The notes under the pieces were generated by a model. The model did not search any database. It was not told where the DNA came from and saw nothing but the letters and a program-made list of their open reading frames with translations. The translations under genes were made by a program, and so were the position numbers. This document shows, in pieces, positions 12,341 through 23,080 of a stretch of 64,000 bases of DNA. The stretch's first letter is position 1; each line of letters opens with the position of its first letter. Source of the DNA: Psychrobacter okhotskensis (GTDB lineage: Bacteria; Pseudomonadota; Gammaproteobacteria; Pseudomonadales; Moraxellaceae); the NCBI RefSeq assembly GCF_013248965.1, contig NZ_JABRVQ010000003.1, positions 1 to 64,000 on the forward strand. Direction: 5' to 3'.

Positions 12341-12417
<77 letters not shown>

Positions 12418-12541
12418 TCAATCTAGAACGCATATTATAGGGAGGTTTTGTAGAAGTGTCAACGTTTATTTTAAATAAAGTCTAAATTAAACGTTTGCTA
12501 CCAAAAAATCCAACCTGACGCTATGCAGCGTCCATAAAACT

Positions 12542-12626
12542 TGGTGCGATTGGGGGGACTTGAACCCCCACAGCTTGCGCCACCACCCCCTCAAGATGGC
12601 GTGTCTACCAATTCCACCACAATCGC
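12542..12626 (-). tRNA. tRNA-Leu (GAG)
   Basis: This 85-nt class II tRNA has an encoded CCA, acceptor GCGATTG/CAATCGC, a long variable arm and anticodon loop TTGAGGG with anticodon GAG, which reads CUC and CUU. It sits between secG and tRNA-fMet, the same place as leuU in E. coli and Pseudomonas. Confidence 0.95.
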
Positions 12627-20636: not shown

Positions 20637-21265
20637 AGTGGCTTCCTTATCAAATAATTATTGCCAAACTAAAAAATAAGTAACGTATTGAACTGCTTAC
20701 TCTACCTAGGTTGTACTACGCATTTTGCACTATAGTAAAAACACGCTATGTCGCACAATGGCTAAAAATCTAGTGGTAAGAGTTTATCATTATGTGAGAT
20801 TATGCTACCACATTATATCTATAAAGTTTGTTACAGCACCAATGAAAATTTTGTTGCGTTTTTAGGCTGAATAATTCTTAACCATTCGCTTTGCAGCCAT
20901 CGACTGATGCCTATAGTGTATATACGTTGCGCCCCATTATGGCGATTGCTGTTTAATGATAACAACTTATTATGACAGTCGCTCATTATCACGCTTATGA
21001 TAGCTATTAAGGCGATTATTAAGACGGTTAACTGCTTTTTTATCATAGGCTTATTGAATTTTTATGATAGTCTTTCCTAGTTAGTTCGCAGTATTTGACG
21101 ACTTTAAAATTTGTATTTAATAGCGTTTGACACCATACTATTTACCAATGGCTATTGTCTATTTAGTACTATTACCCCTACCATTTTACTTCTTTATTTA
21201 CCCTATTTTAGATATGACCTCCCATGCTTTTATGTGAGGTTGATTGTCTGTCATGAGAGGCGTTG
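20637..21265. other. Gene-poor region upstream of recN
   Basis: About 630 bp hold no gene I can support. A 71-codon minus-strand frame (20831-21046) starts with a hydrophobic stretch resembling a signal or membrane segment, but has no ribosome binding site and an unremarkable remainder. The recN promoter must lie in the right part. I see no clear LexA-type box, as expected for Moraxellaceae, which lack a classical LexA. Confidence 0.35.
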
Positions 21266-22954
21266 ATGCTTGTATCATTAACTTTACATCAGTTTGCATT
21301 GATTGCTCAGCATGAGCTGAGTGTGGCTGAAGGCTTTAATGTCATTACCGGTGAGACAGGGGCTGGTAAGTCGCTATTACTAGATGCGCTATCCTTATGT
21401 GCAGGCGAGCGTGCAGACAGTGCGATGGTCAGACATGGCGCTGCAAATGCGGATATTTATGCGCAGTTCGATGTGGAAAATAACAATGTTGTTGCTGAAT
21501 GGTTTGCCAAAAATGAGCGAGCGCTAGAAGAGCCGGAAGTATTGATTCGTCGTCAATTGAGCAACACAGGGCGCTCCAAAGCATGGCTCAATGGCACGCC
21601 AGTGAGCTTGGCAGAGCTTAAAAGTTTGGGTGCATTACTGGTTAATATCCATAGCCAACATGCTCAGCAAGCGTTGCTTAAGCCGCAGTTTGTGGTGCAA
21701 TGGCTCGATGAGATGGCACAAATCACGCCACTAGCGGCACAAACGGCTAGCAGCTATCAAGCTTATCAGCAGCTTAAACGCCGTGCGGATGACATTGCCA
21801 GCCGCGAAGCTCAGCGTCAAGATAGAATCCAACTATTGCAAAGTCAGCTGGCTGATATTGCCCCATTACTGGCGGTTGATTATGCGGAAGTCGAAGCGGA
21901 GCACGAAGAGCTGTCTAATATCGAAGCGTTAATGCAAGAGGCCAGTCACGGTCTTCATCTACTCGACAATGATACCGATGAGCCTGACGTCATGACCTTA
22001 TTAGGACAGGCCATCAAGCTCTGTGATCATCAGCTGGGGGTTAGTCAAACCTTTGAGCAAGCTTCCGAGCAGCTACATTTAGCACAGCAGCAAATCACTG
22101 AGGTGACCGCTCTACTCTCAGATTATGCCGAGCAGCAACTGCCTGACCCAGAGCGCTTGCAAGCATTAGACAATTTAATCAGCTTAGGTCACCGCTTGTC
22201 ACGTAAGCATAGCTTGCCAGCAAGCGACTTGATTAACGAGGCCAAAGGCTGGGAAGCGCAATTAGAGCAGCTTGAAAACGAACCAAGCAGTGATGCCATG
22301 GCAGCGCAAATTGAACAAGCATGGCAAGAGTATCTGACGCTAGCAACCCAACTAAATAAAGAAAGAACAAAAGCGGCGCCAACTGTCAGTAAGCAGCTGA
22401 TTAAGCAATTAAAACCGCTTGCCCTGCCCAACGCCCGCTGCGATTTTGTCTTTACTAAGAAGACCGATCCAAGCCAATATAGTGCGCAAGGCTGCTATGA
22501 TATTGATTTATTGTTTAGTGCCAACGTTGGTATGCCGATGCAGCCGCTACATAAGATTGCCTCAGGCGGTGAGCTGTCGCGGATGGCGCTGGTCATGCAA
22601 GTATTGCAAGCGACCAATGCCGATAATAATGCCGCCAAGCCAATGCTAGTATTTGATGAAGTCGATGTTGGTATCAGTGGCGGCACCGCACAAGTGGTCG
22701 GTGAGCTCTTACGCGAGCTTGGGCAGACGCAGCAACTACTTGCCATTACCCATCAGGCGCAAGTCGCAGCGCAAGCGCATCAGCATATCTTGGTACAAAA
22801 ACACCATGACGAACAGACTGAAAGTGAGCTGTTAATATTGACTGACAGCGCGCAAGTCGATGAGTTGGCTCGTATGTCGGGCGGTGTGACCATCACTGAC
22901 GTCACCCGTGATCATGCCCGTAGTCTATTGTCTGATGTAAAATATAGTCAGTGA
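21266..22954 (+). CDS. recN: DNA repair protein RecN
   Basis: RecN is an SMC-like ATPase acting in recombinational double-strand break repair. The 562 residues have Walker A GETGAGKSLLLDALSL, a central coiled coil (about 155-370), the ABC-like signature ASGGELSRMALV and Walker B PMLVFDEVDVGISGG. I chose the ATG at 21266 with GAGAGG 5 nt upstream rather than the TTG just before it. The last codons and the stop lie inside an interspersed repeat starting at 22943, so the C-terminal Tyr-Ser-Gln appears to come from the repeat. Confidence 0.96.
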   Translation: MLVSLTLHQFALIAQHELSVAEGFNVITGETGAGKSLLLDALSLCAGERADSAMVRHGAANADIYAQFDVENNNVVAEWFAKNERALEEPEVLIRRQLSNTGRSKAWLNGTPVSLAELKSLGALLVNIHSQHAQQALLKPQFVVQWLDEMAQITPLAAQTASSYQAYQQLKRRADDIASREAQRQDRIQLLQSQLADIAPLLAVDYAEVEAEHEELSNIEALMQEASHGLHLLDNDTDEPDVMTLLGQAIKLCDHQLGVSQTFEQASEQLHLAQQQITEVTALLSDYAEQQLPDPERLQALDNLISLGHRLSRKHSLPASDLINEAKGWEAQLEQLENEPSSDAMAAQIEQAWQEYLTLATQLNKERTKAAPTVSKQLIKQLKPLALPNARCDFVFTKKTDPSQYSAQGCYDIDLLFSANVGMPMQPLHKIASGGELSRMALVMQVLQATNADNNAAKPMLVFDEVDVGISGGTAQVVGELLRELGQTQQLLAITHQAQVAAQAHQHILVQKHHDEQTESELLILTDSAQVDELARMSGGVTITDVTRDHARSLLSDVKYSQ

Positions 22955-23080
22955 AAAGTCATATCGATACATCGCGCACTGCTGATATCAATTTTTCTTG
23001 CTTACTGTGCCTACGCAGACAGAGGCTGCAAAAAATTGATATCAGCAATACCATAGCGTTTTTAGGATATTTTGATTATA
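22943..23080 (+). repeat. Interspersed palindromic repeat A, copy 1
   Basis: This is a ~138-bp element with ends TATAGTCA and TGATTATA. Its core is a perfect 16-bp inverted repeat (GCTGATATCAATTTTT, 22981-22996, and complement 23031-23046) around the conserved centre CTTGCTTACTGTGCCTACGC. Four other copies lie in the window near 54.1, 58.7, 60.9 and 62.3 kb. This copy begins inside the recN 3' end and fills the gap to algH. Confidence 0.85.

Follow-up and report, generated by a model that had tools for sequence, protein, structure and literature searches.

Compensatory pairing and a one-strand bias in the inner hairpin of an IS630-type MITE family of Psychrobacter

Why does a short palindromic repeat of Psychrobacter okhotskensis carry stems that differ in sequence from copy to copy and still pair? 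The question comes from an earlier sequence-only reading of the window, the 64,000-nucleotide stretch of DNA analysed here (G000:C3:1-64000, from a genome of 3.38 Mb in 74 contigs), which described five copies of the repeat. All five are present, in two subfamilies, as follows.

22943..23080, folding strand minus: copy 1, A1 subfamily, 138 bp; covariance model R1, 93.1 bits
54051..54196, folding strand minus: copy 2, A2 subfamily, 146 bp; R1, 89.7 bits
58633..58780, folding strand minus: copy 3, A2 subfamily, 148 bp; R1, 87.1 bits
60797..60938, folding strand minus: copy 4, A1 subfamily, 142 bp, apical segment longer by 4 bases; R1, 71.3 bits
62243..62390, folding strand plus (opposite orientation): copy 5, A2 subfamily, 148 bp, the poorest stem; R1, 61.4 bits

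Several features first ascribed to these copies change on closer inspection. The ends, thought to be common to all, differ: TATAGTCA/TGATTATA, TATAATCA/CAACTATA, TATAGTCA/CAACTATA, TATAGTCA/TGACTATA and TATAGATA/CGACTATA. The centre, thought to be invariant, has CTTACTG in one window copy, CTATGCC in one, GTCTACGCTGAC in one, four additional bases in one and GCCGAC in one, and its middle is wholly replaced in some copies elsewhere in the genus. The stems, described as paired in every copy, have 18, 17, 18, 16 and 13 Watson-Crick pairs among the first 20 register pairs of copies 1 to 5, so that the stem of copy 5 is clearly poorer. Each window copy adds two minus-strand G.U pairs within these 20. 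Four copies do cluster within 8.4 kb, but this is only mildly unusual, as a four-copy cluster anywhere in the genome has a P of about 0.047 for 70 copies placed uniformly. The parts of copy 1 are given below.

22943..22975, plus strand: left IS630-type end (TATAGTC...ATATCGATAC), from the end-profile test on 315 family ends
22976..22997, strand unassigned: left arm of the 22-pair stem, from pairing by position
23000..23007, minus strand: 3' block of the minus-strand internal loop (CAGCAAGC; copy 1 reads CAGTAAGC)
23008..23019, minus strand: apical segment (TCTGCGTAGGCA), swapped for unrelated sequence in some other copies
23020..23027, minus strand: 5' block of the minus-strand internal loop (AGCCTCTG)
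23030..23051, strand unassigned: right arm of the 22-pair stem, from pairing by position
23052..23080, minus strand: right IS630-type end, closing in GATTATA, from the end-profile test

Copy 1 is also located at the 3' end of a gene: the ORF at 21263-22954 stops on a TGA within it (overlap 22943-22954), so the insertion seems to add a few codons.

The repeat has further copies in the genome, as the sequence-only reading had supposed. About 70 are present; a 19-base core with up to three mismatches gives 71 matches, versus 1 for a reversed control pattern. At the same stringency, core matches reach 344 in genome G122, 289 in G064, 143 in G158, 127 in G025 and 124 in G234, and at least one occurs in 58 of 80 chosen genomes, a set picked in part for earlier matches among its members. 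The exact 20-base core pattern is found in at least 114 stretches of named genomes, all Psychrobacter among the matches listed, and in 18 of 57 genomes of relatives, all of the window's own genus, with none in 21 genomes of other genera. Of 199 genomes in the family, a first covariance model had matches in 61, namely 60 of Psychrobacter and one from a different genus. With a second model, for which only 12 candidates were scored per genome, matches were obtained in 12 genomes out of 390 in the order, every one from the window's genus. A 40-base exact pattern gave no match across genome contigs, and a match on an Acinetobacter baumannii plasmid spans 46 of 138 bases, with no IS630 transposase annotated in the 8 kb inspected. 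Carriage as phage cargo was rejected, since copy 1 had no match at E 1e-5 among 50,697 phage records and the exact 20-base core pattern none in viral contigs.

Of 220 core matches collected from loci, 217 had the expected neighbouring bases and were retained. Both ends lie within two mismatches of TATAGTC and GACTATA in 201 of these. In the 151 copies with at most one mismatch at both ends, the element is 134-175 bp long, which leaves no room for a transposase gene. There are two main classes, A1, mostly of 138 bp, and A2, mostly of 145-146 bp. Five loci of this same genome (L263, L277, L278, L279 and L286) have an A1 left end and no hairpin core; they are either deletion products or core-less relatives.

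Compensatory change had been read as pointing away from passive MITE copies. However, compensatory change does not exclude MITE copies, and the copies are MITEs, with a TA target duplication at empty sites and IS630-type ends. What a filled site has beyond an empty one is the element and a single additional TA. Joined-flank queries (210) returned 16 spanning matches, 7 gap-free at the junction and 9 gapped. One gap-free match was dropped because it fell in the core of another copy; the remaining six sites lack the element in a relative, and five have TA and one has CA. Nine filled/empty pairs were compared by eye. Two are clean, one of them also among the six joined-flank sites, and seven are not, including window copy 1 versus L119. 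The clean pair that is not among the six, L101 versus L076, gives a further empty site by eye. At L033 (~982-1066), two cores lie 84 bases apart, one copy apparently having inserted into the core of the other.

A transposase with matching ends, which had been proposed as something to look for, has a counterpart in the genus, where IS630-family elements ending in TATAGTC were found. Those with boundaries that could be placed measure about 890-980 bp, and their ends consist of TATAGTC, approximately 8 variable bases, and then ATAAAA..GATACA or ..GTTAT. A profile of these ends, built on 68 distinct ends from 45 IS630 elements with the first 7 columns omitted, distinguishes 315 ends of the MITE family from 1032 further sites reading TATAGT, with an AUC of 0.88. 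By its TA target and its ends, the family is an IS630-type MITE. Matches to PF13358 (IS630-family genes) occur in 48 of 60 genus genomes, three of them in this genome, and copy number does not correlate with IS630 gene number (rho 0.16, p 0.22, 60 genomes). Genome G033, with 56 copies, lacks any PF13358 match, and G122, the genome richest in copies, has three short matches, none intact; in these two genomes the autonomous partner may have been lost or may lie outside the PF13358 profile. An origin of the hairpin within IS630 elements was rejected: among 49 of 70 loci that were fetched, there were two matches, both outside the elements.

The pairing of the stem was examined in an alignment anchored on the core, a global alignment of 111 copies having given a poor consensus fold. 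In 59 non-redundant copies read as the minus-strand structure, 92.3% of cells pair, which bears out the claim that the stems vary with compensation. Cells changed on both sides number 221, as compared to 71 when shuffled and no more than 61 on sliding the structure, and 18 of 28 pairs are altered on both sides. This two-sided change is confined to the outer stem. The inner pairs are near-constant and speak neither for nor against the model; covariation therefore supports the outer stem only. The inner register, originally UGUC/GGCA, was superseded by CUG/CAG once the apex variants were known. Pairing by position was counted, with minus-strand G.U included, in the copies that have 11 or more of 20 ungapped Watson-Crick pairs (87 of 104 in A1, 85 of 113 in A2). 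It spans 22 positions and then drops, in A1 from 0.70 to 0.20 and in A2 from 0.86 to 0.24, with positions 21-23 lying outside the criterion by which copies were selected. The sharp stop in both classes indicates that stem length is equal despite the differing sequences. Own arms also exceed arms swapped within a class, at 28.7 versus 19.6 in A2 and 29.7 versus 25.2 in A1.

The hairpin domain thus delimited between the ends is a 22-pair stem closed, on the minus strand, by AGCCTCTG...CAGCAAGC, which flank the apex. Among the weak covariance-model matches are copies that keep these two blocks, often exactly, with a different 6-16 nt between them, such as TCACGCCTGCGAA, GAGTGACGGAGTCGCA, GGAACG, TGATAA or GAACTACCGTA. 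Later sets of variant apices were retrieved with the blocks themselves as the query, so that the invariance of the blocks, both in those sets and in the alignment made from them, is partly by construction. The block-based search gave 257 candidates, 35 of which have an apex other than the main one. Of these 35, 28 form 15 or more of the 20 outer pairs, and two, at window 33038 and in L112, resemble chance matches. When 32 copies were aligned, 22 of them with variant apices, 93.3% of cells pair, and two-sided cells number 110 versus 24. The ends differ as well: L394, from another genus of the family, and L338 have GTTAT-type ends, and L402 carries TAGGACTTACGC at its ends, for which kinship to IS630 is only putative. 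Genomes G102 and G142 contain several identical-scoring copies, those in G102 matching over 66 nt, as variant-apex elements do, suggesting that variant-apex forms amplify on their own. At L378:9686-9773 (G122), the CAAG unit of the 3' block is expanded to several tandem repeats.

Mismatches within the stem are not distributed evenly between the two strands. Read on the minus strand, the 59 copies have 108 G.U, 21 A.C and 96 other mismatches; with the innermost pair left out, G.U still exceeds A.C by 80 to 21. G.U is in excess at 15 stem positions and A.C at none, and the number of positions per class is 17:2 and 14:4. On a tree inferred from the same 72 bases, one-step events from Watson-Crick pairs led to G.U 51 times versus 19 times to A.C (p 1.7e-4), whereas control transitions in the core are balanced at 30:28 (Fisher p 0.017). 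When distinct one-sided variants are simply counted in three groups, the ratio is 30:17 (p 0.08; p 0.22 versus the outer region). At stem positions 16 and 18 of G122, the consensus is a minus-strand G.U and both Watson-Crick forms occur in other copies; a G.U intermediate is likely the path of compensatory change at these positions. Given the excess of G.U on the minus strand, this strand appears to be selected to fold, as RNA or as single-stranded DNA.

When such selection acts was addressed with copies that share an insertion. Seventeen copy pairs have matching flanks on both sides, two of them within one locus. Of the 15 others, eight have flank matches that approach the element to 25 bases or less at either end and are treated as same-site pairs, L206/L212 being among those left out. 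These eight differ at 15/272 core (5.5%), 24/407 arm (5.9%), 21/336 end (6.3%) and 21/411 flank (5.1%) positions. Over all 15 pairs, differences are less frequent in the core than in the flanks (42/507 vs 104/731, p 0.0016), a result that we take to reflect the seven added pairs being different insertions. Genome G122 provided 85 copies in 390 kb, of which 78 aligned well. In these 78 recent copies, mutations found in a single copy fall in the core about as often as elsewhere (8/2574 vs 38/8148, p 0.39). Variants common to several copies occupy 1 of 33 core columns versus 23 of 105 others (p 0.015), a contrast weakened by the core-based retrieval, which is biased against core-mutated copies. 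Because the eight same-site pairs give no sign of added constraint on the domain and the variants that spread avoid the core, the constraint is probably exerted during multiplication of the element, as purifying selection in multiplying lineages and not after insertion.

These observations suggest that the repeats probably constitute a non-autonomous IS630 (Tc1/mariner-type) family of Psychrobacter in which folding of the minus strand raises the success of the element during its spread. In this mechanism, IS630 transposases would mobilise the MITE in trans. Its minus strand would act as a transcribed RNA, or less likely as single-stranded DNA, and a protein would bind the internal loop of the folded strand. 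The fold would then favor the element while it spreads, and would not be a service to a neighbouring host gene. The RNA role of the fold in propagation is our inference. A wider and more tentative proposal is that a structured RNA domain is a working part of a DNA transposon: the folded minus-strand transcript, or folded single strand, might promote the mobility or copy success of a Tc1/mariner-type MITE through its conserved internal loop, and might be passed between elements with different ends, leaving stems and apices free to change.

The minus strand could also fold as DNA, for example on the lagging strand or during transposition, and be recognised by the transposase or a host protein. 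G.T is better tolerated than A.C in DNA too, so the strand asymmetry fits this reading, as does the appearance of the constraint in transmitted copies. IS630 transposition, however, is a double-stranded cut and paste, and a Y1 (HUH) transposase is dispensable in G013, G033, G062 and G063, which have 69, 56, 43 and 36 copies and no PF01797 match. We regard a single-stranded DNA hairpin as unlikely, although it is the strongest of the alternatives.

Somewhat less probable still is a host regulatory RNA, in which the hairpin would be kept for the stability or processing of neighbouring transcripts, as with Correia/NEMIS and ERIC. Effects of RNase III or RNase E are known for such elements from the available parts of PMC2229807 and PMC10969869. 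Nearly all copies (216/217) lie outside called ORFs of at least 100 codons, and the minus strand is the sense strand in 79 of 132 tandem gene contexts and the plus strand in 53 (p 0.03). The recent copies of G122 nevertheless show no orientation bias (17 minus vs 21 plus), and a general bias relative to genes, weak over all copies and absent in G122, was rejected. At the same sites, moreover, the hairpin is no more conserved than its flanks, so a host-maintained function is not indicated; only the 15-pair set, with its lower core difference, departs from this. Copy 1, the sole copy scanned for an intrinsic terminator (a GC-rich hairpin followed by a T run), has none, nor was a sigma-70 promoter detected there, and both roles were rejected for this copy. 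A known Rfam family was likewise rejected. In the window only two tRNAs score above the gathering threshold, no copy does, and the ten sub-threshold matches at copy 1 are to miRNA families and SmY. Two minus-strand tRNA genes lie at window positions 12344-12626.

The arms might instead be complementary through template-switch correction or cruciform formation, with no selection for a folded strand. Palindromes are prone to template-switch correction, and at L167 (G000:C5, ~91976) the inner hairpin appears, by eye, to be inverted relative to the ends, as correction events would yield. Cruciform formation and palindrome repair are disfavoured because they treat both strands alike and predict no strand bias, yet G.U exceeds A.C on one strand. 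Neither the end of pairing after 22 pairs nor the conserved blocks around an exchanged apex is explained by a passive palindrome, which we consider improbable. A REP-like palindrome moved by a RAYT (Y1) transposase is very improbable and was rejected on the four copy-bearing genomes without a PF01797 match (36-69 copies each; this genome has one match): in the A1 consensus the apical part is immediately preceded, on its 5' side, by GTAG, a REP motif, but window copy 1 and most A2 copies have GCAG at that position, the TA duplication and IS630-type ends argue otherwise, and copy number is uncorrelated with Y1 number (rho 0.16, p 0.21).

Among known systems, REP/BIME elements with RAYT are likewise intergenic multi-copy palindromes; they use another transposase class, which the Psychrobacter family does not require. 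In its putative folded transcript the Psychrobacter family comes nearest to Correia/NEMIS, ERIC and CIR. Closest in origin is RUP, described in the portions available of PMC2229807 and PMC3049150 as 107 bp long and intergenic, with a TA target, ends like those of a resident IS630 (IS630-Spn1) and a folded transcript; the Psychrobacter element is similarly small and intergenic, with a TA target and IS630-like ends. The fold of RUP joins the terminal repeats (PMC3049150, in part), and the accessible part of PMC2267715 reports that it has no common structure above the RNAz threshold used there. Unlike RUP as described there, the Psychrobacter element has an inner strand-specific domain with a fixed 22-pair stem, a conserved internal loop and an exchangeable apex. 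The Correia/NEMIS elements of Neisseria resemble it in being small, with TA termini, inverted repeats and an RNA hairpin. A conserved core is mentioned for them in the part available of PMC2649163, and RNase III cleaves their transcript at its terminal repeats (PMC10969869, in part). In contrast, as far as these excerpts go, the Psychrobacter hairpin is an inner domain, a distinction drawn by description and without an alignment. ERIC is one conserved sequence, unlike the Psychrobacter family, whose arms diverge with compensation; here too the comparison is of descriptions, not of sequences. As described in the accessible sections of PMC2229807, ERIC/IRU elements are palindromic with TA termini, both of which the Psychrobacter family shares, and have orientation-dependent RNA effects. 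CIR elements of Caulobacter and Brucella are described in the same sections as small mobile repeats with phylogenetically conserved RNA structures and a conserved loop motif, points on which the Psychrobacter family is similar; they differ, again by description and not by sequence, in that they consist of two arms plus a linker and have a GANTC methylation motif. MITEAba12 of Acinetobacter, a MITE from the same bacterial family, differs in its duplication and ends, which are a 9-bp duplication and ISAba12 ends in the available text of PMC6382973.

A literature search of open-licence papers gave, among the matches listed, nothing on the repeat in Psychrobacter; the part available of PMC12306157 has one table row on P. 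arcticus, and that of PMC3733652 did not contain the terms sought. Within these papers, to the extent that their text was available, we did not find a prior description of an inner strand-specific domain with an exchangeable apex. In the sources above, as far as they were accessible, the hairpins of bacterial MITEs are described as a pairing of termini or as acting on host transcripts, whereas the Psychrobacter hairpin is a separate domain that folds on one strand and is seemingly constrained during multiplication. The comparison raises a testable question, namely whether a folded RNA or single strand is needed for a cut-and-paste DNA element to spread, and the hundreds of near-alike copies in one relative, together with naturally exchanged apices, provide ready material with which to address it.
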